From contig NZ_CP066059.1 of assembly GCF_016127915.1 (NCBI RefSeq), forward strand, positions 1,446,001 to 1,510,000: DNA of 64,000 nt, given 5' to 3'. Every line of letters begins with the position of its first letter. Positions within the stretch are counted from its first letter, which is position 1. The position numbers and the translations under genes are program-made. This document shows positions 37,598 through 49,047 of the stretch, in pieces. The stretch is from Streptococcus oralis (lineage in GTDB: Bacteria; Bacillota; Bacilli; Lactobacillales; Streptococcaceae). The notes below the pieces were generated by a model. That model did not search any database, had not been told where the DNA came from, and worked only from the letters and a program-made list of their open reading frames with translations.

Positions 37598-37756
37598 TTA
37601 CATTTGTTGATAATTTCTAGACCTATTGGCTTGGTTTGATGAGTTAGATGTTAATATGCTTAATATTGAATCTAACCACCATCCTCCACCTGTAATTTGA
37701 TTGAGTTCAGTAGTTGTTAATTCTTGAAATGAAGTTAGGTTTTGTTTCTTATCCAT
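37598..37756 (-). CDS. blpC: BlpC pheromone precursor
   Basis: A 52-codon gene with ribosome site AGGAG. The 24-residue leader starts MDKKQNLTSFQELTTTEL and ends ITGG, identical in style to pneumococcal BlpC. The predicted mature peptide has 28 residues, begins GWWLDSILSILTS and ends NYQQM. Cleavage after GG by BlpA would release the inducer of BlpH. The mature part lacks the PIQL end seen in the pneumococcal types I recall, pointing to a different pherotype. Last gene of blpABC. Confidence 0.9.
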   Translation of the reverse strand: MDKKQNLTSFQELTTTELNQITGGGWWLDSILSILTSNSSNQANRSRNYQQM

Positions 37757-37812: not shown

Positions 37813-39174
37813 TTAATTAGAATGTGTTAAAATTTTATCTTTGAAATAATCAAAATATGTTTTCTTTGCAGTTACACTAGTGACGCGACCTTGTAGACCA
37901 TATTGGATGAGTTTACTGTCCTCACCAGATAGTTTTGCAAGAGCGGTTAATTTAAAGAGATTTCCTTGCTCTGTTCTGGTGGGAGTTTGATCAATGCTCT
38001 GAAGTTGGCCGATGATGGTAATACCGTGATTTCCAATCTTCTCAAGTTTTAATCTTACAGTTTGTCCTTTATCTAGTAAGGGGAGATAGTCAGATGATAC
38101 GTAGTAAGTGATTAGTACTTCTCTTGTATCTGTTATAATAGGGAATATTTGAGCAATTTCTGTACCAGTTGGAATTCTATTTTTACCTTCAAATTCGCTG
38201 TTCAGATGAACGATACCTTTACTTGGAGCGGTTAAGGTATTGTTTTCCAAGCGCTGTGTCGCTTGATCTAGTTGTACTTTTAATTCTGTTAGTTGATTTT
38301 CCACAGCTAGTTGTTGCTGAGAAGTTGTTTGTAAAAACTGAGTACGAAGTACTTCAATTTTGGTTTCTAAACTATTATCATAAGTTGCTACACTTCCGAT
38401 ACCAGCTTGCTGAATTTTGAGACTTGCGATAGATGATTCAAGGCCTGTAACACTTTGATTGATTTGAGATAAAAATTGCTCTTCTATAGCTCCTTGTGTT
38501 TGTCCTTGTGATGCTACCAGATAACTATTCAAGGTTGACTGGTGTGGATTGCCAGTCGGTAAGCGTGCTCTTTTGTTTATGATAGCATCTCTCAGCTCTT
38601 GATATTCTCCAATTTGTTGTTGAATTTTTGTAATTTCTTGTTCGATAGCTGATGAACTGCTATTAGCAAGATTGGCTTGATTTGAAACTTCAGTGTTAGT
38701 CTTTGAGATACCCAGCTCAATATCATGAGCTTGTTTAGTAAAATTCATAAAGGTATTATAGTAGCCAAACTCATCCTCACCAGAAAAAAGATCGGTATTT
38801 TTTTCTAAGCTTTGTTTCAAAATTCCAAGTCCTTCTTTTTGCTTCTCAAGTCTTTGTAACTGAGTTTCTAAGGCAGTTTTCTGACTTTCTTCCATTGTTT
38901 CAGAGTATTTGATGAGTAAGTCACCTTTTTCAACTACTTGATTTGCCACTAAATGATTAGCTAAGATAGGATTATCACTGGTTGACTGAATGGATGCAAT
39001 GACACTTGTAGGAGTGACTTCTCCTTGCGATGTAACAGTAATCTCTTTTGTAGCAACAAGGGAGAAAATCACGATGAAAGTAAACAGTAATGAAAGTGGT
39101 ATGATCAATACTGTCGCATAATTATGGTAACGTCTCTGATAAAACTCGACGCTTCTAAAAAGATTAGGATTCAT
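37813..39174 (-). CDS. blpB: BlpB, bacteriocin/pheromone export accessory protein
   Basis: 453 residues of the ComB/MesE membrane-fusion family. One N-terminal membrane segment (about 22-44), a long periplasm-facing coiled coil (about 100-310), and a C-terminal HlyD-type beta part (NTLTAPSKGIVHLNSEFEGKNRIPTGTEIAQIFP, GQTVRLKLEKIG). Works with BlpA to move GG-leader peptides out of the cell. It appears intact and lies 10 bp after blpA. Confidence 0.94.
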   Translation of the reverse strand: MNPNLFRSVEFYQRRYHNYATVLIIPLSLLFTFIVIFSLVATKEITVTSQGEVTPTSVIASIQSTSDNPILANHLVANQVVEKGDLLIKYSETMEESQKTALETQLQRLEKQKEGLGILKQSLEKNTDLFSGEDEFGYYNTFMNFTKQAHDIELGISKTNTEVSNQANLANSSSSAIEQEITKIQQQIGEYQELRDAIINKRARLPTGNPHQSTLNSYLVASQGQTQGAIEEQFLSQINQSVTGLESSIASLKIQQAGIGSVATYDNSLETKIEVLRTQFLQTTSQQQLAVENQLTELKVQLDQATQRLENNTLTAPSKGIVHLNSEFEGKNRIPTGTEIAQIFPIITDTREVLITYYVSSDYLPLLDKGQTVRLKLEKIGNHGITIIGQLQSIDQTPTRTEQGNLFKLTALAKLSGEDSKLIQYGLQGRVTSVTAKKTYFDYFKDKILTHSN

Positions 39175-39184
39175 AACATTCTCC

Positions 39185-41338
39185 TTATTTGTTGAATAGA
39201 TGATGGTAGAAGCCTTGCGCCTGTATTAACTCTTGATGACTACCAACTTCAATGATTTTCCCTTGGTCAAGAACAATGACACGGTTAGTCCGTTCGGCTA
39301 TACTTAGACGATGGGCTACAAAGAGAATGGTTTTATCAGTTAGGGACATAAGATTATCTATAACCTTTTTCTCAGTCAAAACATCGAGAGCACTAGTAGC
39401 TTCATCTAGTATTAAAACAGGAGATTTAGTTAAAAGAGCACGAGCGAGGGCGATTCGTTGCTTCTGTCCTCCTGACAGACCTGCTCCATCAGAAAGTTGA
39501 GTTTGATAGCCCATAGGCATTCTTTCAATATCTTGACGGATTTCAGCTAATTCGCAAGCTTTTAGAATATCTTCTTGGCTAATCATACTATTACCGCCCA
39601 AGGTTAAGTTTTCCAAGATAGAGCCATTAAAGATATAGGCTTGTTGGGGCAGGTAATTAATATGACGTCGCAAGATTTTTTTATCAATATTTTTAATATC
39701 CTGATGATTGATGGTAATCTGTCCTTTGTAAGGGTCAAAGAAGTTGACAATCATTTTGGCTAGAGTTGTTTTACCAGAACCACTAACTCCAACTAGGCTA
39801 ACCTTATCACCTTCTTTAATCGTTAGATTGATATCTGTTAAGGTATCTCGCCCAAAACCATACTTATAAGAAAGGTCATCAAATTCAATATCGCCCATCA
39901 AAAAATTTGAATGAACAGGATTTTCTTGAACTTGAAATTCAGATTCGACTAAGTAGACCTCGTTCAAGCGGTTATTAGCAACCTTCGCAGATTGGAGTTT
40001 AGTTTGTAGGTTGATAATATTTTCCATAGGAGTTGTAAAGTAAGAAAGAAGTGTATTAAAGGTAATCAGCTGACCGATAGAAATCTTACTCGACATGACT
40101 AATTGAGCACCAAACCATAGGATAAAGATATTAAGAACTAACTTTGTTCCTTGTTTTAAATTAGTTTGTAAAATAGAATATTTAGTAAGTTTAAAGGATT
40201 TTTCCAAATAATCGACAAATTCACTGTCAATATTTTGGTAGCGATTTTCTTCACTTGTGAGTGACTTGATGGTTTCGATCCCGTTGATATCTTCGATAAT
40301 AGCAGAACTAACCATAGAATTACTTTGCATGACATCATGGTTCATTTTTTCAAAAGGTTTCATAAAAGAAAAGATGATGAATATGTAAATAGGGATAGAA
40401 ATAAGAGAAAGAAGAAAGAGGTTAGGATTTTGTGCCAGTAAGACACTCCCTACAAGGATCAGAATGGAAACATCAAGAAGAAGAGAGAGAATGGTAGAAG
40501 CTAAGGCATCTATAATAGAGTTGGCATCTGTGAATCGTGAAATGATTTCCCCTGTACGACGTGTCGCAAAGAAAGACATAGGAAGTTCAAAGATATGGCG
40601 AATATAGGCCAAAATTACATCAATGCTTAATCTCTGACTCAGAACAGTTAGGAGATAATCTCTGGAGAAGCTCATGGCTTGTTGGAGAATATAGGTGATA
40701 ATTAGACCAATTGAGATGATTCCTAAAGTTGATCTCATCTGATTTGGGATGTACTCATCCAAGATTCCTTGGAGATAATAAGAACCACCGATATTGATAA
40801 TAGTGACCAATAAGCTTGAGAGAACAATGTAAGCAATGAGAGATTTTTGTTTGAAAATCAGAGGGAGGAAGCTCAGTAGACCATTCTTTTTATCTTTATG
40901 GGGTTGATAGCTGGGTTTGGGAGCTAGAAAAATAGCTACTCCAGTCCATTCAGAGAAAAAGCGTTCTTTTGACATTTTGGTGATTTTTACAGAAGGATCA
41001 GGATCACCAATAATCAGATAGTCTTTCTTTGTTTGATAGACAACATAGTAATGTTGGAGTTTCCCTTCTTTGTTAACGTGAACGATAAATGGATAGGGGA
41101 CATCGCTCATATCAAAGAGCGTTTTATCTGCTTGAACAGGCCTTGTTTCAAAGCCCATTTCATCAGCGGCTTTTACAATGCCAAGAGCAGTAGTCCCTTC
41201 TTTATTGGTCTTTGCAAGTTCTCTCAAGTGAGCTAGAGAAAAATCTGAACCATAGAATTTAGCAATCGAGGCTAAGGTAGCGACACCACAGTCTCTAGCA
41301 TCTATTTGAGGAACAAATGTACGTTTATAAGAAGTCAT
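39185..41338 (-). CDS. blpA: BlpA, peptidase-containing ABC exporter
   Basis: 717 residues. N-terminal C39 peptidase with C17 in DARDCGVATLAS and the His in QHYYVVY, then six membrane segments (about 165-440), then the ATPase: Walker A GVSGSGKTT, signature LSGGQKQR, Walker B VLILDEATSALD, H loop FVAHRLS. It cleaves leaders after GG and exports bacteriocins and BlpC. The reading frame is intact, unlike the frameshifted blpA common in pneumococci. The start at 41338 follows GAAGGG; the TTG six bases earlier is less likely. Confidence 0.95.
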   Translation of the reverse strand: MTSYKRTFVPQIDARDCGVATLASIAKFYGSDFSLAHLRELAKTNKEGTTALGIVKAADEMGFETRPVQADKTLFDMSDVPYPFIVHVNKEGKLQHYYVVYQTKKDYLIIGDPDPSVKITKMSKERFFSEWTGVAIFLAPKPSYQPHKDKKNGLLSFLPLIFKQKSLIAYIVLSSLLVTIINIGGSYYLQGILDEYIPNQMRSTLGIISIGLIITYILQQAMSFSRDYLLTVLSQRLSIDVILAYIRHIFELPMSFFATRRTGEIISRFTDANSIIDALASTILSLLLDVSILILVGSVLLAQNPNLFLLSLISIPIYIFIIFSFMKPFEKMNHDVMQSNSMVSSAIIEDINGIETIKSLTSEENRYQNIDSEFVDYLEKSFKLTKYSILQTNLKQGTKLVLNIFILWFGAQLVMSSKISIGQLITFNTLLSYFTTPMENIINLQTKLQSAKVANNRLNEVYLVESEFQVQENPVHSNFLMGDIEFDDLSYKYGFGRDTLTDINLTIKEGDKVSLVGVSGSGKTTLAKMIVNFFDPYKGQITINHQDIKNIDKKILRRHINYLPQQAYIFNGSILENLTLGGNSMISQEDILKACELAEIRQDIERMPMGYQTQLSDGAGLSGGQKQRIALARALLTKSPVLILDEATSALDVLTEKKVIDNLMSLTDKTILFVAHRLSIAERTNRVIVLDQGKIIEVGSHQELIQAQGFYHHLFNK

Positions 41339-41365
41339 TGGCAATTCCCTTCATATAATATGATG

Positions 41366-41440
41366 AGTTTATTATGCCATAATAATAAGTTCATATTTTG
41401 TGAAATCTTGAATTGTCATTGAAACTTCCTGAATGGTAAA
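41366..41440 (-). promoter_or_regulatory. BlpR-dependent promoter of blpABC
   Basis: Minus strand: ATTCAGGA and ATTCAAGA half-sites 21 bp apart, then -10 box CATAAT 37 bp after the second half-site, preceded by TGG. Confidence 0.85.
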
Positions 41441-41498
41441 AAATGATTAGAAATTATCTTTTTTTAAAAAATTTAGCGGTAGTTTCAAATGAAAAGCT

Positions 41499-41563
41499 AA
41501 TTCAAGACGATTCGATGACAATTCAAGATTTGGATGAAAAATTTAAAAAAACAGTGATATACT
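41499..41563 (+). promoter_or_regulatory. BlpR-dependent promoter, bacteriocin 1
   Basis: ATTCAAGA at 41500 and 41521 (21 bp apart), TATACT at 41558-41563 (37 bp after the second half-site). Confidence 0.9.
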
Positions 41564-41618
41564 AAACTTGTCAAGGTTGCAACAGGACAAAAATTAGAAA
41601 TAAAAAGGAGTATTTGTC

Positions 41619-41822
41619 ATGGATACAAAAATGATGTCACAATTTTCTGTTATAGATAATGAAATGCTTGATAGAATAGAGGGAGGAATATTTGGGGTTG
41701 ATGATGCTGTGTTTTGGACGGTAGGCGGCTATGTTGTAGGTAGAATTGTTGATACAGCAATTGGTGATTTTACGAATCAATGCCGGAAAAATCCTCATCA
41801 GTGGTTCTGTGTTCGTGTATAG
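41619..41822 (+). CDS. Double-glycine bacteriocin precursor 1
   Basis: 67 residues. A Blp-type leader (MDTKMMSQFSV..MLDRIEGG, 23 residues) precedes a 44-residue mature peptide starting IFGVDDAVFW, with a GYVVG (GxxxG-like) helix and two cysteines in QCRKNPHQWFC near a basic end. Its own BlpR promoter and AAGGAG ribosome site precede it. It resembles class IIb peptides, but the polar Cys-bridged tail is unusual. I cannot give it a standard blp letter. Confidence 0.85.
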   Translation: MDTKMMSQFSVIDNEMLDRIEGGIFGVDDAVFWTVGGYVVGRIVDTAIGDFTNQCRKNPHQWFCVRV

Positions 41823-42135
41823 ATATAATAGTGTTGTATTGTATAAGAATATATATAACTTAATGACCTATGTACGGATAGAAACTGTTCTTTTGCAAAC
41901 GAGTCGCTTATTCAATTATAAGTTTACGTGCTCCTAGTCACAGTTCTTGTGCTTGATGGAAAGAATGACACCTATAAAAATACGAGGTAGTGGCTGTACC
42001 ACTCATTTATTCACCTATCCGTGATTTGTAGTAGTGATAGGCTTTCTCATTATTATTATAAAACAAAATAAAGAGCACAACACTTTTTCATTCTGTGTTG
42101 TGCCTTAAGTAAAACGAAAGGAATGAATTATAACA
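41823..42135. other. Intergenic region between bacteriocins 1 and 2
   Basis: AT-rich, no gene recognised. It contains GTGG/CCAC and CCTATC/GATAGG small hairpins and a perfect 9-bp stem GCACAACAC/GTGTTGTGC (42075-42103) just before bacteriocin 2. The last has no T run, so it is more likely an RNA stabiliser or attenuator. No BlpR half-sites were found. Confidence 0.5.
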
Positions 42136-42339
42136 ATGAAAAAAATTGATTATATTGCTTTGAATGAAGTAGAATTAGAGACAATTAGTGGTGGAGATGA
42201 CTGTTTTATTGGAGATATCGGATGTATTGGCTGGGGGATTTTGAAGAGTATCGGAGGGATGATAAAACCTGGTCCATATGTTCCTCCAGTATGCATTCCA
42301 AAAAGTTCATGGAATCCTGCACCTCCAGTTCCATGTTAA
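42136..42339 (+). CDS. Double-glycine bacteriocin precursor 2, four cysteines, proline-rich tail
   Basis: 67 residues. The leader (MKKIDYIALNEVELETISGG, 20 residues) differs from the other Blp leaders. The mature 47-residue peptide starts DDCFIGDIGCIGWG and has cysteines at 3, 10, 33 and 47, the last as its C-terminal residue. Its second half is rich in proline (PGPYVPPVCIP, PAPPVPC). Ribosome site GAAAGGAATG. No adjacent BlpR site, so it depends on read-through or another signal. Two disulfides are possible. The family is not one I recognise. Confidence 0.78.
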   Translation: MKKIDYIALNEVELETISGGDDCFIGDIGCIGWGILKSIGGMIKPGPYVPPVCIPKSSWNPAPPVPC

Positions 42340-42845
42340 AAGGTGCTTGTAAACTTCTATAAAAATTGAATAATCGACTTGTTCGGTATTTTGTTGAAAC
42401 TCCGGAACTATAATATACAGGTGCTATTAAGGATTATTTTAGCTGATTTAAATAGGTGAAAACTAAAAACTAATGGCTAGTTGGAACATTAAAAATTAAC
42501 TGCTTAACCAAATCTTGCTTCAAATAATTCTTGAACAAGTCTAATAAATTAAACGAATAAGATAGGTTATTAACACAGTCTTGTTCGTTTTTTCTAATAC
42601 ATTATTTAATTAATACACTTATAAAATTAGAAAGCAGTAGAACTGGGAAATACTACCACAGGTTTATTATTAACTTTGTCAGTATTGTTTGAAATCTCAA
42701 AAAGTATTTTAAACTATATGTGTTTAGTTCTTTAGTTGGATTGTTGTTGAGTATAACTATTTTTGTATAGATGAAAATCTTGTTATTGTTCAAGATGTTT
42801 TGATGATCATTTATGATTTCAGTGATTCAAAATCAAAATGAGTGC
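42340..42845. terminator. Non-coding stretch with terminator after bacteriocin 2
   Basis: At 42552-42594, AACGAATAAGA pairs with TCTTGTTCGTT (one G-U) and is followed by Ts: a likely terminator. The rest of this 500-bp AT-rich stretch shows no gene; it may be the decayed remains of older bacteriocin genes. Confidence 0.55.
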
Positions 42846-42851
42846 TATACT
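42788..42851 (+). promoter_or_regulatory. Degenerate BlpR-dependent promoter
   Basis: GTTCAAGA (42788) and ATTTATGA (42809) are 21 bp apart, and TATACT (42846-42851) lies exactly 37 bp after the second. The half-sites are weak but the spacing is exact. Confidence 0.65.
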
Positions 42852-42908
42852 AGCAGTGTAAAGGTTGTAGCTAAACTAAGATAAAGCATACATTTAGGAG
42901 GAAATCTT

Positions 42909-43070
42909 ATGAAGAAAAAAATATTAATCATTTTAACCTTGTATCTGATCATGTCCATCTTTCTTTATCCGCTTAGGGAGAGTATTTGGTATCATCTATT
43001 TTATACCATAGCCTATCTGATTGCGGTTATGATCTATTTTGTTTTAATTGAAAAGAAAGAAAAGGAATGA
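42909..43070 (+). CDS. Small two-helix membrane protein of the blp locus
   Basis: A 53-residue product: basic start MKKK, hydrophobic ILIILTLYLIMSIFLYPL, short polar turn RESIWYH, second hydrophobic stretch YTIAYLIAVMIYFVLI, then EKKEKE. Strong ribosome site AGGAGG. Its stop overlaps the start of the next gene (ATGA). Size, topology and context suggest an immunity protein or a partner of the following BlpX-like protein; no known domain. Confidence 0.78.
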   Translation: MKKKILIILTLYLIMSIFLYPLRESIWYHLFYTIAYLIAVMIYFVLIEKKEKE

Positions 43071-43471
43071 AAACTTTTCTTGCTAAAAAACGGAATATCT
43101 TCCTTGCGAGATTGTTCCTATGTCAGTTGCTTTTGCTTGTCTCTACTTATCTATTTTTATCTCGTCAGTTTTTACATTTTTCCTTAATTTTTCAATTGCT
43201 TCTAGTTATTATTAACTTAGCTTCTATTTTGGTTACTGTTTATCTCACTAGGGAGATGAGGATAAGAGAGTTTGAAGATGATGATTTGGTTAGTCCTAGA
43301 ATCAATCAACTTATGTTCATCGGCTTGACAGGCTTTATGTGTATTATTTGTTTGTATAGAGGTATCACAGTAACAGAATCCTATCAGCAATTAATTGTCT
43401 ACATTGGCGCTATTCTCTGCTTGATTATCATGTTTCTGCTCATTTGGGGATTGAAGTATTATAAAAAGTAG
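43067..43471 (+). CDS. BlpX-like four-helix membrane immunity protein
   Basis: 134 residues with about four hydrophobic segments (14-33, 39-60, 84-101, 109-130) and a charged central loop REMRIREFEDDDLVSPR. Translationally coupled to the small gene upstream and driven by the degenerate BlpR promoter. The order relative to blpO/blpY in pneumococcus suggests BlpX, a putative immunity protein; I recall this only loosely. Confidence 0.68.
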   Translation: MKTFLAKKRNIFLARLFLCQLLLLVSTYLFLSRQFLHFSLIFQLLLVIINLASILVTVYLTREMRIREFEDDDLVSPRINQLMFIGLTGFMCIICLYRGITVTESYQQLIVYIGAILCLIIMFLLIWGLKYYKK

Positions 43472-43486
43472 AAGCTAATGAAGTAT

Positions 43487-43523
43487 AAAAGGGTAAGTGT
43501 TTTTGAAATACTTACCCTTTTAT
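43487..43523 (+). terminator. Terminator after blpX-like gene
   Basis: AAAAGGGTAAGT pairs perfectly with ACTTACCCTTTT, followed by a short T-rich tract. Confidence 0.8.
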
Positions 43524-43537
43524 AATGAAGATTTTGC

Positions 43538-43602
43538 AATTCAAGATGTTTCGATGACAATTCAAGATTTGGATGAATTTGTAATCTTAAATAAGGTAAG
43601 AT
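43538..43602 (+). promoter_or_regulatory. BlpR-dependent promoter of the thioredoxin-like gene
   Basis: ATTCAAGA half-sites at 43539 and 43560 (21 bp apart), then TAAGAT at 43597-43602, the expected 37-bp position. Confidence 0.82.
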
Positions 43603-43631
43603 AAAGATAACAAATGTAAAGGAGTATTCTT

Positions 43632-44597
43632 ATGAAGAAACAAAAGATAAAATCGCTATTACTTGTACCACTTGTATTTGCATCTATTACTACGGGTGTT
43701 GTATATGCAGAAGAACAGACTACTTCATCTATCCAGGCGAATGATAGTTCTCTTGTGGCACCAGATTTGCCATCGGCTAAGGAAAATGTGGAGCATAAAC
43801 CTTCCGTTGTAACTCCCGAGGAGTATGAGCAGAATGTTGCGGAATTTAAAAAGATAGATATTGAAGCCGTTCGTCAATCTTTTACTGGGGACCAATTGGA
43901 ACATACTATATATTTTGGTAGAAAAACATGCTCTCATTGTCGTCAATTTTCTCCTGAATTGAAAGAATTTAATAACCTGATTGAAAAGAAGTTAGAGTAT
44001 TATGATTTGGATGGTAAAGATTTTGACGGGGAAGCGAGAGAGTTTCTATTTAAAAAAGTCGGTATTCCAGGAACACCAACAATTTTGTATTTAAGAAATG
44101 GACATCCGATATCTGGATGGGTTGGTGGGGGAGCGACTGCACAACAGGTGTATGATTATATGTACTCGAGAAACTCACCTAAGCAAACGGAGACAGTGGC
44201 ATCTTCTGAGGATACAGTAACTGGAAGTGTCCGTGATGATAAAACAGGAGAGGTGAAGAATTCAAAGGAAAATTCGACCAATAACAGTGATAACAGAGAG
44301 CCATTGAAGGATAATATTCCTCCTTCTAACACTATAACTGTTCAGTCTGAAGATTTGGTAATGATAGATAAAAAGAAGCGAGGGGAGTCATCTCAGACGA
44401 TTTCTGAAAATACTGAGAAGTTACAAACTACTTTATCCAAGGTTGAGGGGAATGATTCTCCCTCCAAAACCACTCATTTGAGTAAACAATTACTACCTAA
44501 TACAGGAGTGGAAGAAAGTTACAATCTATTACGTCTAGCGGTTGCACTCTTAATTACTTCAGGTATGATTAAGTGGAGACAAAGAATTCATAAATAA
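43632..44597 (+). CDS. Wall-anchored thioredoxin-fold protein of the blp locus
   Basis: 321 residues. Signal peptide (1-27, ends VVYAEE), spacer, then a thioredoxin domain (about 85-190) with active site C100-S-H-C103 in [11 protein letters not shown] and the cis-proline loop [11 protein letters not shown] low-complexity Ser/Thr/Lys linker (190-285) leads to the sortase signal LPNTG at 288, hydrophobic segment and basic tail. The domain resembles PedC/BrcD-type bacteriocin accessory proteins that form disulfides, but these are not normally sortase-anchored as far as I know. Its own BlpR promoter and the cysteine-paired bacteriocins around it suggest disulfide formation on exported peptides at the cell wall. 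Confidence 0.85.
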
Positions 44598-44720
44598 AAA
44601 TAGATGGTAAACAGGTGCAATGATATTATTTGTTTGTAATAACATATGGCTAGAATTTTCCTATAGACAAGAGTGAAAGGGCAAGTATGTTTTTAATGCT
44701 TGCTTTTTAAATTTTTTAAC

Positions 44721-44785
44721 AATTCAAGACGTTTTGATGACAATTCAAGATTTGGATGAAAAAAATTAATAAACGATGATATACT
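44721..44785 (+). promoter_or_regulatory. BlpR-dependent promoter, bacteriocin 3
   Basis: ATTCAAGA at 44722 and 44743 (21 bp), TATACT at 44780-44785 (37 bp). An A+T-rich leader with AAAGGAG follows, nearly identical to that of bacteriocins 1 and BlpM. Confidence 0.9.
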
Positions 44786-44843
44786 AAACTTGTCAAAGTT
44801 GCAACAGGATAAAAAATTAAAAATAAAAAAAGGAGTATTTGTC

Positions 44844-45077
44844 ATGAATACAAAAATGATGGAACAATTTGAAATTATGGATACTGAAATGCTTGCTTGT
44901 ATAGAGGGTGGGGATGTATCTGGTATTTATAGAGGGTATGCTTATCAGGACAGTCCATTTGGTCCTTACCCTTCTATATTAAAAAATTCAGGTCCTTTCC
45001 CAGTAAGTGGGTACTGCCCGCGTGGTTATCGTGACCTTGGTTATATAGGAGCAGGTTTTCATTTATGTGGAATATAG
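44844..45077 (+). CDS. Double-glycine bacteriocin precursor 3, Tyr/Gly/Pro-rich
   Basis: 77 residues; the start at 44844 follows AAAGGAG (an upstream ATG at 44790 lies in the leader RNA). Leader of 23 residues ends MLACIEGG. The mature 54-residue peptide starts DVSGIYRGYAYQDSPFGPYP and ends HLCGI. It is rich in Tyr, Gly and Pro, has two cysteines (positions 35 and 52), and lacks the long Gly/Ala helix of other Blp peptides. A CPBP protein follows 31 bp later, probably its immunity partner. I do not recognise the mature family. Confidence 0.82.
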   Translation: MNTKMMEQFEIMDTEMLACIEGGDVSGIYRGYAYQDSPFGPYPSILKNSGPFPVSGYCPRGYRDLGYIGAGFHLCGI

Positions 45078-45108
45078 GCTGAAATATAAGAAATGAGGAA
45101 GAATTTCT

Positions 45109-45798
45109 ATGAAAAAGTATCAGCTTCTATTCAAAACAAGTGCAATTTTATCCTACCTATTTTTCGTATTTGGTCTTTCTCAGCTGACGCTTATCGTCCA
45201 AAACTATTGGCAATTTTCTTCTCAGATAGGCAATTTATTCTGGATTCAAAATATCTTGAGTTTACTTTTTATTGGAGTCATGATTGTGGTTCTTGTTAAG
45301 ACAGGCCATGGTTATCTCTTTCGCATTCCAAGAAAAAAATGGCTTTGGTATTCGATTTTGACAGTATTAGTGGTAGTGTTCCAGATCTCTTTTAACGTTC
45401 AGACAGCTAAACATGTTCAGTCAACTGCGGAAGGTTGGGCTGTATTGATTGGTTATAGTGGGACTAACTTTGCAGAGCTAGGTATTTATATAGCCCTGTT
45501 CTTTCTGGTTCCACTGATGGAAGAGTTAATCTATAGAGGATTACTGCAACATGCTTTCTTTAAGCATTCGCGATTTGGTCTTGATTTGCTTCTTCCTTCT
45601 ATTTTATTTGCTCTCCCTCATTTTTCAAGCCTGCCTAGTCTGTTAGATATCTTTGTCTTTGCAACATCTGGAATCATCTTTGCTGGTTTGACCCGCTATA
45701 CCAAGAGCATTTATCCATCCTATGCGGTGCATGTTATCAATAATATCGTAGCGACATTACCATTTTTGCTGACTTTTTTACACAGGATATTTAGCTAA
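45109..45798 (+). CDS. CPBP (Abi) intramembrane protease, BlpY/PncO-like immunity protein
   Basis: 229 residues, about seven membrane segments. CPBP motifs: EELIYRGLLQH (motif 1, Glu-Glu and Arg), FALPHFSS (motif 2) and HVINNIVATLP (motif 3), the catalytic-type residues of intramembrane glutamic proteases. Such proteins give immunity to class II bacteriocins in streptococci and lactobacilli. Its position behind bacteriocin 3 under a BlpR promoter suggests protection from that peptide. BlpY is the likely pneumococcal counterpart. Confidence 0.85.
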   Translation: MKKYQLLFKTSAILSYLFFVFGLSQLTLIVQNYWQFSSQIGNLFWIQNILSLLFIGVMIVVLVKTGHGYLFRIPRKKWLWYSILTVLVVVFQISFNVQTAKHVQSTAEGWAVLIGYSGTNFAELGIYIALFFLVPLMEELIYRGLLQHAFFKHSRFGLDLLLPSILFALPHFSSLPSLLDIFVFATSGIIFAGLTRYTKSIYPSYAVHVINNIVATLPFLLTFLHRIFS

Positions 45799-45827
45799 AA
45801 ATAGTAGATTAAAAATAATTATCGATT

Positions 45828-45869
45828 ATAAGAAGTGAATAATAGAATTTAATATTATTCACTTCTTAT
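45828..45869 (+). terminator. Strong hairpin after CPBP gene
   Basis: A perfect 17-bp inverted repeat (ATAAGAAGTGAATAATA with its complement) around an 8-nt loop. A T-poor tail follows, so it may act partly as RNA stabiliser. Confidence 0.75.
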
Positions 45870-45899
45870 TAGTTGATTGGGAAGATTGTGCTCTTTGAG

Positions 45900-45965
45900 T
45901 AATTCAAGACATTTCGATGACAATTCAAGATTTGGATGAAAAAAATTAATAAACAGTGATATACT
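45900..45965 (+). promoter_or_regulatory. BlpR-dependent promoter of blpMN
   Basis: ATTCAAGA at 45902 and 45923 (21 bp), TATACT at 45960-45965 (37 bp). Confidence 0.9.
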
Positions 45966-46020
45966 AAACTTGTCAAAGTTGCAACAGGAAAAAAATTAAA
46001 AATAAAAAGGAGTATTCATC

Positions 46021-46275
46021 ATGAATACAAAAATGATGTCACAATTTCATGAAATGGATATAACTATGTTATCTAGTATTGAAGGAGGCAAGAATAATTG
46101 GCAAACTAATGTCTTAGAAGGTGGTGGTGCAGCTTTTGGTGGCTGGGGCTTAGGAACAGCCATTTGTGCTGCGAGTGGTGTTGGAGCGCTATTTATGGGA
46201 GAATGTGGATACATAGGAGCTAAATTTGGTGTGGCTCTTTGGGCAGGAGTAACAGGTGCAACGGGTGGATTTTGA
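46021..46275 (+). CDS. blpM: Bacteriocin BlpM precursor
   Basis: 84 residues. Leader of 23 residues (ends MLSSIEGG) then the mature peptide starting KNNWQTNVLEGGGAAFGGWG, with GxxxG helices and two cysteines (AICAAS, GECGY). It closely resembles pneumococcal BlpM, one half of the two-peptide bacteriocin BlpMN. AAGGAG precedes the start; blpN follows 15 bp later. Confidence 0.9.
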   Translation: MNTKMMSQFHEMDITMLSSIEGGKNNWQTNVLEGGGAAFGGWGLGTAICAASGVGALFMGECGYIGAKFGVALWAGVTGATGGF

Positions 46276-46290
46276 TAAAAGGAGATTTGT

Positions 46291-46494
46291 ATGAATACTT
46301 ATTATAATGTAGATGAAACAATGTTAAGTGAGATTTATGGAGGTAATTCCGGAGGAGCGGCTGTAGTTGCTGCTTTAGGTTGTGCAGCGGGTGGAGTGAA
46401 ATATGGGAAGTTTCTAGGACCATGGGGCGCTGCAATAGGAGGAATTGGAGGAGCAGTGATTTGTGGATATTTAGCCTATAGTGCTACATCATAA
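46291..46494 (+). CDS. blpN: Bacteriocin BlpN precursor
   Basis: 67 residues. A short leader (MNTYYNVDETMLSEIYGG, 18 residues) then NSGGAAVVAALGCAAGGVKY and a Gly-rich helix with two cysteines. Partner peptide of BlpM; the pair forms membrane pores only together. Ribosome site AAAGGAG. Immunity proteins usually follow, but here the next gene is another bacteriocin. Confidence 0.9.
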   Translation: MNTYYNVDETMLSEIYGGNSGGAAVVAALGCAAGGVKYGKFLGPWGAAIGGIGGAVICGYLAYSATS

Positions 46495-46741
46495 AAATGG
46501 AAGCTATATTTTATGAAGGCTATATTCTATATTATTCTCTTCGCTTTCCAAACATATCTTATTTATCTATCTATCTATAAGTACCTCTGATAAAAAACAA
46601 AAGACTATTGAATTAACATCATTGAATTGTTTTGTCATATTATTTCTAATCTATGATAAATTATTTTTTCTCTTCATTGCCTATGTTTTTTTGATAATTT
46701 TTATATTAAACTTGTTCCGTAACTGAAAAGTTATATACGAT

Positions 46742-46990
46742 ATGAATACAAAAATGATGGAACAATTTAAGATTATGGATACTGATATGCTGGCTAGCAT
46801 TGAGGGAGGAACTGATTGGGGAACAGTGGGAAAAGGAGCTGTCTATGGAGCAGGTATCGGAGTTGCTATGTGTACGGTAGGAGGACTCCTTACTGGTGGT
46901 TCCGCATGGGCTATGACTGCTGGCTGTGCTTGGGCTGGAGCTAAACTTGGTGGTGCTTTTACTGCAATTGCTGATAATATTTGGCCATAG
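46742..46990 (+). CDS. blpI: Bacteriocin BlpI-like precursor
   Basis: 82 residues. Leader (ends MLASIEGG) then TDWGTVGKGAVYGAGIGVAM, Gly/Ala-rich with two cysteines (AMCTVGG, AGCAWAG), ending ADNIWP. Most like BlpI (name by recall). Unlike its neighbours it has no BlpR site upstream. The TATATTAAACTTGT text matches the usual -10 region, but the rest of the leader, including the AAGGAG site, is missing, so expression may be poor. Confidence 0.75.
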   Translation: MNTKMMEQFKIMDTDMLASIEGGTDWGTVGKGAVYGAGIGVAMCTVGGLLTGGSAWAMTAGCAWAGAKLGGAFTAIADNIWP

Positions 46991-47005
46991 AAGGGAGTAG
47001 AAATT

Positions 47006-47215
47006 ATGTTTGATTACAAAATAGTAGACAATCAAGAATTAAGTAATATTTCTGGAGGTGGATTGGGAGGAGATGTAGTTGTAGGAGCCTTGTCGGGTGC
47101 ATTTCAGGCAGGACAATCTTGTATTGCTGGAGGCCCTCAAGCTTACTTGATTTGCGCAACAGGGGGCGCTATAGTAGGTGGCATTATAGCTTTTGGATTG
47201 AGACCCCCAAAATAG
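47006..47215 (+). CDS. blpJ: Bacteriocin BlpJ-like precursor
   Basis: 69 residues. Leader MFDYKIVDNQELSNISGG (18 residues), mature part GLGGDVVVGALSGAFQAGQ, two cysteines (QSCIAGG, LICATGG), ending FGLRPPK. Ribosome site GAAGGGAG, 15 bp after the BlpI-like gene, so the two form a pair like BlpMN. Naming as BlpJ is by recall. Confidence 0.75.
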   Translation: MFDYKIVDNQELSNISGGGLGGDVVVGALSGAFQAGQSCIAGGPQAYLICATGGAIVGGIIAFGLRPPK

Positions 47216-47239
47216 TTTAAAAAAGGAATGGGTGTTAAT

Positions 47240-47470
47240 ATGTTAAATGGGACTATGATTCAGCTTATACTCATTGCAATTTGTTGTGTGTACATTATTT
47301 TTAACACCAAGGCTGATAAAAACCCAAAGAGAGGATATCGTACAGCTTTGTACCTTTTCGTTATGGCTGGTATTATATCCTATATTATGAATTATCTGAA
47401 TTGGTTAGATTTTTTCTTACTGATAACTCCGATAATGTGTCTATTTAAATTTGAAGATAAATGGAGTTAG
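47240..47470 (+). CDS. Small membrane immunity-type protein (BlpL-like)
   Basis: 76 residues with three hydrophobic segments (IQLILIAICCVYIIF, ALYLFVMAGIISYIM, FFLLITPIMCLF) separated by basic loops. The start at 47240 gives a usable distance from AAGGA; the ATG at 47228 touches it. It lies 24 bp behind the BlpJ-like gene and is probably the immunity protein for the BlpIJ-like pair. Confidence 0.72.
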   Translation: MLNGTMIQLILIAICCVYIIFNTKADKNPKRGYRTALYLFVMAGIISYIMNYLNWLDFFLLITPIMCLFKFEDKWS

Positions 47471-47552
47471 CAACATTTGACACTTCAATAGGTTATTAAC
47501 TATCCTTTGGCTCATTGTCAACTGTAGTGAGTTGAAGAAAAGCTAAGATCGA

Positions 47553-48435: not shown

Positions 48436-49047
48436 ATGAGAATTTTTAATAAATGTCATGCCTTATTTTTTGGATTTTTAGTATTTGTAATCGTTGATGC
48501 AGCGGGGTATTCCATCAATCAAGGGAATTATTTTCAACACCAGTACACATTCATTCTTATAAAGAGTCTCTTGCTTTTCCTTAGTTTTGTCTATGCGAGA
48601 TGGTTCGATATGATTTCTTTTAGGATTTTAAGCAAGAAACAACTCTTGCTCTTCATTGGAATCTTTCTTCTTACGGTGCTGGTAAATATAGGCTATCATG
48701 CTTTTTTCTCAGTTGCTTCTGGTGCCTCGGCTCAACACCTTGAGGAAACGAGTAAAGGACTTTCGCTTTCCTTTATTATAAGTGTTACAGTTTTGGGACC
48801 AATCCAGGAGGAACTCATGTTCAGAGGACTTCTTCAGGGGGCTATATTTGAAAATTCTTGGTTAGGGCTTGTACTGACTTCCTCTCTCTTTTCTTTCATG
48901 CATGAACCTTACGATGTGCCTTCGTTTTTCTATTATCTACTTGGGGGCTTGTTGCTGGGCTTTGCTTATAAAAAGAGCCAAAATTTGTGGGTTTCTACTC
49001 TAGTCCACATGTCTTACAACAGTTTGCCACTTTTAACTTATTTCTAA
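48436..49047 (+). CDS. pncP: PncP, CPBP intramembrane protease
   Basis: 203 residues, several membrane segments. CPBP motifs: QEELMFRGLLQG (motif 1), FSFMHEPYD (motif 2) and HMSYNSLPLLTYF (motif 3). A second Abi-type protein in the locus, 30 bp after blpZ and with GGGGAGGA upstream. Likely protects against bacteriocins or processes membrane substrates; matches the terminal gene of the pneumococcal blp island. Confidence 0.85.
   Translation: MRIFNKCHALFFGFLVFVIVDAAGYSINQGNYFQHQYTFILIKSLLLFLSFVYARWFDMISFRILSKKQLLLFIGIFLLTVLVNIGYHAFFSVASGASAQHLEETSKGLSLSFIISVTVLGPIQEELMFRGLLQGAIFENSWLGLVLTSSLFSFMHEPYDVPSFFYYLLGGLLLGFAYKKSQNLWVSTLVHMSYNSLPLLTYF

Follow-up and report, generated by a model that had tools for sequence, protein, structure and literature searches.

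Do the double-glycine bacteriocins of Streptococcus oralis have a disulfide-forming enzyme of their own at the cell surface? We addressed this question on a stretch of S. oralis DNA of 64,000 nucleotides (the window; assembly GCF_016127915.1, contig NZ_CP066059.1, positions 1,446,001 to 1,510,000, to whose first base all coordinates below refer). It contains a blp bacteriocin cluster with seven double-glycine (GG) peptide genes and, among them, the gene of a secreted thioredoxin-domain protein (43632..44597, plus strand). An earlier note, made from the letters alone, had proposed that this protein is a disulfide-forming station fixed in the cell wall where the peptides emerge. We consider it likely that the 43632 gene encodes an extracellular disulfide catalyst of the TdpA/BlpT type belonging to the Blp cluster, helpful to it and probably not always needed.

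Seven peptides with paired cysteines

The seven peptides are all encoded on the plus strand, and the number of cysteines after the double glycine is even in each of them: 2, 4, 2, 2, 2, 2, and 2 in the order of their genes. The mature part of the pheromone BlpC has none. Both counts agree with the earlier note. Five of the genes encode GG bacteriocin precursors with two mature cysteines: 41619..41822 (PF10439, 28.2 bits, cut-off 27.1), 44844..45077, with one more cysteine in the leader, 46021..46275, 46291..46494, which starts 15 bases past the stop of the preceding gene, and 46742..46990. The GG peptide at 47006..47215, also with two cysteines, scores 23.0 bits with PF10439, below the cut-off, while the four-cysteine peptide at 42136..42339 is a GG peptide of another kind (14.1 bits, also below). 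A GG leader followed by two mature cysteines, as in gallocin A and similar two-cysteine bacteriocins of class IIb, is thus found in six of the seven window peptides, the seventh having four.

The gene at 46742 was overlooked by our peptide scan because the scan demands a match to a ribosome site. It encodes a typical leader despite the missing ribosome-site match and promoter repeat, and is perhaps a silent cassette or one transcribed by read-through. The same scan of the remaining ~50 kb of the window gave no match.

Anatomy and predicted fold of the surface thioredoxin

The 43632 product is composed of a signal peptide, judged by eye, a thioredoxin domain (residues ~58–180), a variable linker, and a C-terminal end with the LPNTG motif at residue 288, a hydrophobic tail, and the basic terminus KWRQRIHK. 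The domain carries the CSHC motif at residues 100–103 and a Thr-Pro loop at 148–149, within the segment GTPT that starts at residue 147; the two cysteines C100 and C103, the loop proline, and the LPNTG anchor were all found where the earlier note had placed them. The domain is recognized by PF00085 (28.2 bits, above the cut-off of 23.5). The succession of an LPxTG motif, a hydrophobic stretch, and a basic end is the layout of a sortase substrate, with scores close to the limits of the profile models: 16 bits with the LPXTG_anchor model, barely above its cut-off of 15.9, and 16.9 bits with the Pfam model Gram_pos_anchor, under its cut-off of 20. An AlphaFold model of the domain adopts the thioredoxin fold with a predicted local distance difference test score of 91.5. 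Its best match in the PDB is the bacteriocin transport accessory protein of S. pneumoniae (1zma), with a template modeling score of 0.77 normalized by the query and 18% identity.

Relatives of the protein were detected at 1e-8 in 80 of 284 Streptococcus species genomes. Thirteen of them, with weak matches only (~27–32% identity, mainly short frames), were left out, and 67 genomes had strong matches (E ~1e-20 or better). Neighborhoods were extracted from 66 of these, giving 68 family loci, window included; G106 was omitted for its 3.4 kb contig, and the second matching places of G167 and G266 were not included. Some of the surveyed copies look broken: L107, which is split, L109, and L110. After removal of these three and of duplicates, 58 distinct copies with a whole domain were aligned. 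All 58 retain the two active-site cysteines and the proline of the loop, and 56 the threonine ahead of this proline, while the residues between the cysteines vary: CYYC in 30 copies, CSHC in 12, and others in 16.

The TIGR01295 model, which describes the PedC/BrcD disulfide isomerases, covers residues 40–173 of the 43632 product and matches all 58 family members at E up to 0.001. The window protein is not filed under PedC/BrcD because its 67.9 bits fall under the 120-bit cut-off; it could nevertheless act like these proteins.

Among named records, the nearest relatives of the thioredoxin belong to Streptococcus sp. oral taxon 431 and S. infantis DD18 (90–91%). Compared with many mitis-group copies (L007–L021), residues 1 to ~207 are 89–94% identical, whereas the linker and anchor beyond show just 35–41% identity. 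It is as if one domain carried two allelic tails, a pattern of the alignments that resembles exchange by recombination.

A promoter repeat common to the thioredoxin gene and four of the peptide genes

The window contains four mismatch-free copies of a 37-base direct-repeat pattern derived from its own sequence, against 0.00 expected in 100 shuffles. We take these repeats to be BlpR-type sites, presumably bound by BlpR. All are on the plus strand: the copy at 43539..43575 precedes the thioredoxin gene, and those at 41500..41536, 44722..44758, and 45902..45938 precede the peptide genes 41619, 44844, and the pair 46021–46494, in which 46291 comes directly after 46021. The arrangement ahead of the thioredoxin is conserved. 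Indeed, in all 19 intact CSHC-type loci, window included, a copy of the repeat begins 81 bases ahead of the open frame with 0 to 4 mismatches over 33 fixed positions (3 or 4 in the 18 loci other than the window); this search covered CSHC copies of at least 240 bits, which excluded the split L107, and tolerated as many as 7 mismatches, with no shuffled sequences as a control. The claim of the earlier note that thioredoxin and peptides are under the same regulator is consistent with these sites for four of the seven peptides, the others being considered below.

Cysteine parity as a property of the peptide class

GG peptides with a mature part of at least 32 residues are found in 61 of the 68 family loci, within 3 kb of the thioredoxin gene in 57 of the 68, and 204 of these 208 peptides share its strand. 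For comparison, 53 loci without the protein, of ~4–19 kb each, were hand-picked and not randomly drawn among the listed PF10439 matches; 50 of them have such peptides. Shorter mature parts were dropped as pheromone-sized in both sets (102 of 441 peptides: 91 with no cysteine, 5 with one, 4 with two, and 2 with three).

Of the 208 peptides in the family loci, 183 have an even, non-zero number of cysteines, 21 have none, and 4 an odd number; 178 have two cysteines and 5 have four. The comparison loci give 88 of 131 even, 38 without cysteine, and 5 odd. When the peptides are clustered at 60% identity, 98 of the 101 cysteine-bearing families are even and 3 odd, against ~62 odd among all 130 families expected under independent placement. 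Cysteine parity is therefore real, but it is a property of the peptide class rather than of this locus alone. It suggests that streptococcal GG bacteriocins normally have their cysteines paired in disulfides, whether or not a dedicated enzyme is encoded nearby. We tried parity as evidence specific to this enzyme and mostly rejected it: it is weak evidence for the enzyme because loci without the protein show it too. By contrast with the even mature parts, 52 of 339 peptides have one cysteine in the leader (MLACVEGG type), the 44844 peptide among them.

The prevalence of two-cysteine peptides also bears on the type of reaction. An isomerase or proofreader of mispaired cysteines, rather than an oxidase, would be most useful for multi-cysteine peptides such as that at 42136. 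The threonine before the loop proline is a feature of DsbC-type isomerases, and the PedC/BrcD model carries the name of a disulfide isomerase. Most neighboring peptides, however, have only two cysteines, so mispairing within one chain is impossible for them, and we regard an isomerase as an improbable reading of the protein.

The presence of the thioredoxin accompanies a somewhat higher share of paired-cysteine peptides. A peptide with at least two cysteines occurs in 60 of 61 family loci vs 42 of 50 comparison loci (p 0.010), and every peptide has at least two in 46 of 61 vs 26 of 50 (p 0.016). The difference between even and zero counts is sharper at the peptide level (p 7e-6), where the peptides are non-independent. 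Within the comparison set, even counts make up 49 of 83 peptides where the genome has no strong family match, vs 39 of 48 where it has one elsewhere, which favors a link. The size of the difference is uncertain because the comparison loci were hand-picked.

Surface tethering across the family

The C-terminal ends of the 68 copies fall into several types: LPxTG in 40, a variant motif (LPKLG, for example) with a hydrophobic stretch behind it in 10, another end in 11, and short frames, partly broken or cut, in 7. By eye, ten of the 11 other ends are hydrophobic or amphipathic and one is lysine-rich. Wall anchoring is inessential to the family, since a sortase end is present in only 40 of 68 loci. 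The tail variants are scattered across the domain tree, which must be read with caution because of its long branches. The mode of tethering may thus have changed repeatedly, between a sortase signal, an LPxLG-like motif with a hydrophobic stretch, a hydrophobic or amphipathic end, and none. We advance only as a speculation, and a rather unlikely one, that the position of the catalyst near the exporter exit has been selected and decides which co-secreted peptides are oxidized before diffusing away. A relative on a Ligilactobacillus salivarius plasmid (L183, 3806–4780) has LPQLG with a membrane-type tail and lies beside two two-cysteine Blp-type peptides.

Proposed role in disulfide formation

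In the mechanism that we favor, the peptides would exit via BlpAB with removal of the leader at the double glycine, and the secreted CSHC domain, tethered at the surface by the LPNTG tail, would assist the intramolecular pairing of their cysteines, as proposed for BlpT and gallocin A. The promoter repeat that the thioredoxin gene has in common with the peptide operons would fit this scheme. We infer that the 43632 product is anchored in the wall, that the seven window peptides are its substrates, and that it oxidizes these rather than isomerizing them.

Oxidized peptides and a requirement for the thioredoxin are reported for the relative in S. gallolyticus. The cysteines of the gallocin A peptides are oxidized and their activity is abolished by reducing agents; deletion of BlpT impairs killing by the producer, with an effect in coculture comparable to loss of the blp locus (PMC10100652). 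The inactivation by reducing agents also permits a role in immunity, in which the 43632 product would reduce bacteriocins at the producer's own wall, where its predicted surface location and the common promoter repeat would bring it. Such a role is very improbable: disruption of the pneumococcal tdpA is reported to leave immunity unaltered (PMC6422914), and the deletion of BlpT reduces killing (PMC10100652).

Several observations weigh against a dedicated catalyst of all seven peptides. The presumed common regulation does not extend visibly to three of them: the sole site available to 42136 is that at 41500, lying beyond gene 41619 and reachable by read-through, and no promoter repeat is present within 700 bases of 46742 and 47006. 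At the level of peptide families, the link between the protein and even cysteine counts is weak (51 of 65 vs 20 of 33 families, p 0.09, with odd and shared families excluded; p 0.015 with shared families put on the plus side). In addition, of the 28 genomes examined that lack a strong match, 20 carry at least one GG peptide with at least two cysteines. Insertion into the pneumococcal tdpA is reported to alter neither inhibition nor immunity (PMC6422914), and certain pneumococcal copies are split into two frames (PMC4517551). S. thermophilus B59671 is described as having Blp bacteriocin activity despite having no blpG homolog, blpG being the Blp-cluster oxidoreductase gene of that species. Finally, locus L092, which stands for gallocin A in our sequence comparisons, is taken as gallocin-like from peptide lengths and cysteine counts only.

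Some of these points suggest that the disulfides form without the 43632 product, spontaneously or through other extracellular oxidoreductases, the protein being dispensable and mattering only for some peptides or without oxygen. The silent tdpA insertion, the paired-cysteine peptides of genomes without a strong match, and the split or broken-looking copies of the pneumococcus and of L107, L109, and L110 all favor this explanation. The genome of the window also encodes two further Redoxin-family proteins, which by eye are secreted lipoproteins with CcdA-like genes next to them, as well as a short relative of the accessory protein with a CPYC motif, so that redundancy with other oxidoreductases is plausible. 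We take the two lipoproteins to be of the Etrx type, and they would then be reductive. On the other side stand the effect of the BlpT deletion, the reported requirement for BlpG in S. thermophilus LMD-9, and the invariant active site of the 58 aligned members, and we hold full dispensability to be possible but somewhat unlikely. SdbA was set aside as support for a general need for oxidation, the loss of bacteriocin in the S. gordonii sdbA mutant being described as a CiaRH stress response (PMC5112981).

We therefore retain the extracellular disulfide catalyst, as a probably helpful and not strictly needed factor, because other streptococci encode paired-cysteine peptides without the protein and the pneumococcal insertion had no visible effect. 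The disulfide-forming station of the earlier note agrees with the sequence and with what has been published on BlpT. It is tempered by the paired cysteines of loci without the protein, by the LPxTG end found in only part of the family, and by the tdpA disruption, whose lack of effect comes close to the unchanged activity that the note had named as speaking against it. The published record itself contains a testable contradiction: BlpT is needed in one species and TdpA not detectably in another.

Genetic context

The blp cluster starts at the gene of a GHKL-type histidine kinase (35978), followed on the minus strand by BlpC, BlpB, and BlpA and then by the plus-strand bacteriocin region. The BlpC pheromone precursor (37598..37756) scores 93.8 bits with the NCBIfam model NF033215 (BlpC; cut-off 70). 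The exporter accessory protein at 37813..39174, with an HlyD_3 domain, is presumably BlpB, and the C39 peptidase/ABC exporter at 39185..41344 (TIGR01193, 1113.3 bits; PF03412) presumably BlpA. Two CAAX-type proteases (PF02517), at 45109–45798 and 48436–49047, are candidate immunity proteins of the cluster. Directly behind the bacteriocin region, 47669–47833 matches a group II intron (RF02001, 44.7 bits).

We also considered whether the island came from a mobile element or a phage, and rejected this. A megablast search of 41400–47500 against a phage collection, which detects near-identical DNA only, gave no match, and the 30 plasmid records that match the thioredoxin at the protein level (23 Ligilactobacillus, 5 Streptococcus, 1 Limosilactobacillus, and 1 Weissella) all lie below 60% identity. 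Across Streptococcaceae, the domain profile matches in 7 of 59 genomes at 1e-12; outside Streptococcus it matches in 1 of 45, by a short frame.

Comparison with known systems

The earlier note had held a sortase-anchored, BlpR-controlled version of the PedC/BrcD proteins to be apparently undescribed. This was wrong: the protein has already been published together with its anchor, and so has the hypothesis on disulfides. tdpA was named in 2015 for a thioredoxin and Gram-positive-anchor protein of pneumococcal blp cassettes, with orthologs noted in S. mitis and S. pseudopneumoniae (PMC4517551), and in 2019 its LPXTG motif was noted and a role in bacteriocin disulfide formation hypothesized (PMC6422914). 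The main text of the latter uses "disulfide" once, within that hypothesis, and "cysteine" never, and the disulfide state was seemingly unmeasured there. With TdpA, BlpT, and BlpG published, the finding is not new in kind.

Like TdpA, the 43632 product combines a thioredoxin domain with a Gram-positive/LPXTG anchor within the bacteriocin/immunity region of a blp cluster. Its alignment with L035, an orthologous copy from a record titled S. pneumoniae 19F, shows 69% identity over 345 columns. It differs from TdpA by its linker and tail past residue ~207, a divergent allele relative to the listed mitis-group copies, with LPNTG instead of LPKTG.

For BlpG of S. thermophilus, a thiol-disulfide oxidase reported as required for thermophilin 9 activity in LMD-9 (Fontaine and Hols 2008), the likeness is that of a Blp-cluster oxidoreductase, as described in citing papers. 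Induction of this blpG by BlpC in S. thermophilus ST106 is described as about equal to that of blpA, blpD, and blpK. The pneumococcal gene also named blpG encodes a CAAX protease (PMC4517551).

The window protein and the PedC/BrcD proteins both have a thioredoxin fold and are encoded at bacteriocin loci; the window protein is extended by a long linker and a sortase end.

BlpT is a co-regulated surface protein with a thioredoxin domain beside two-cysteine class IIb peptides, a setting that the 43632 product resembles; BlpT was called potentially wall-anchored, in a 2023 paper whose main text does not contain "LPXTG" (PMC10100652). The putatively gallocin-like locus L092 encodes two two-cysteine peptides. 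Their leaders are 23 residues long and their mature parts 42 and 60, in agreement with the published lengths of gallocin A (PMC10100652). Its thioredoxin copy has CYYC and an LPKLG tail where the window protein has CSHC and LPNTG, and the two domains are 55% identical over 119 residues.

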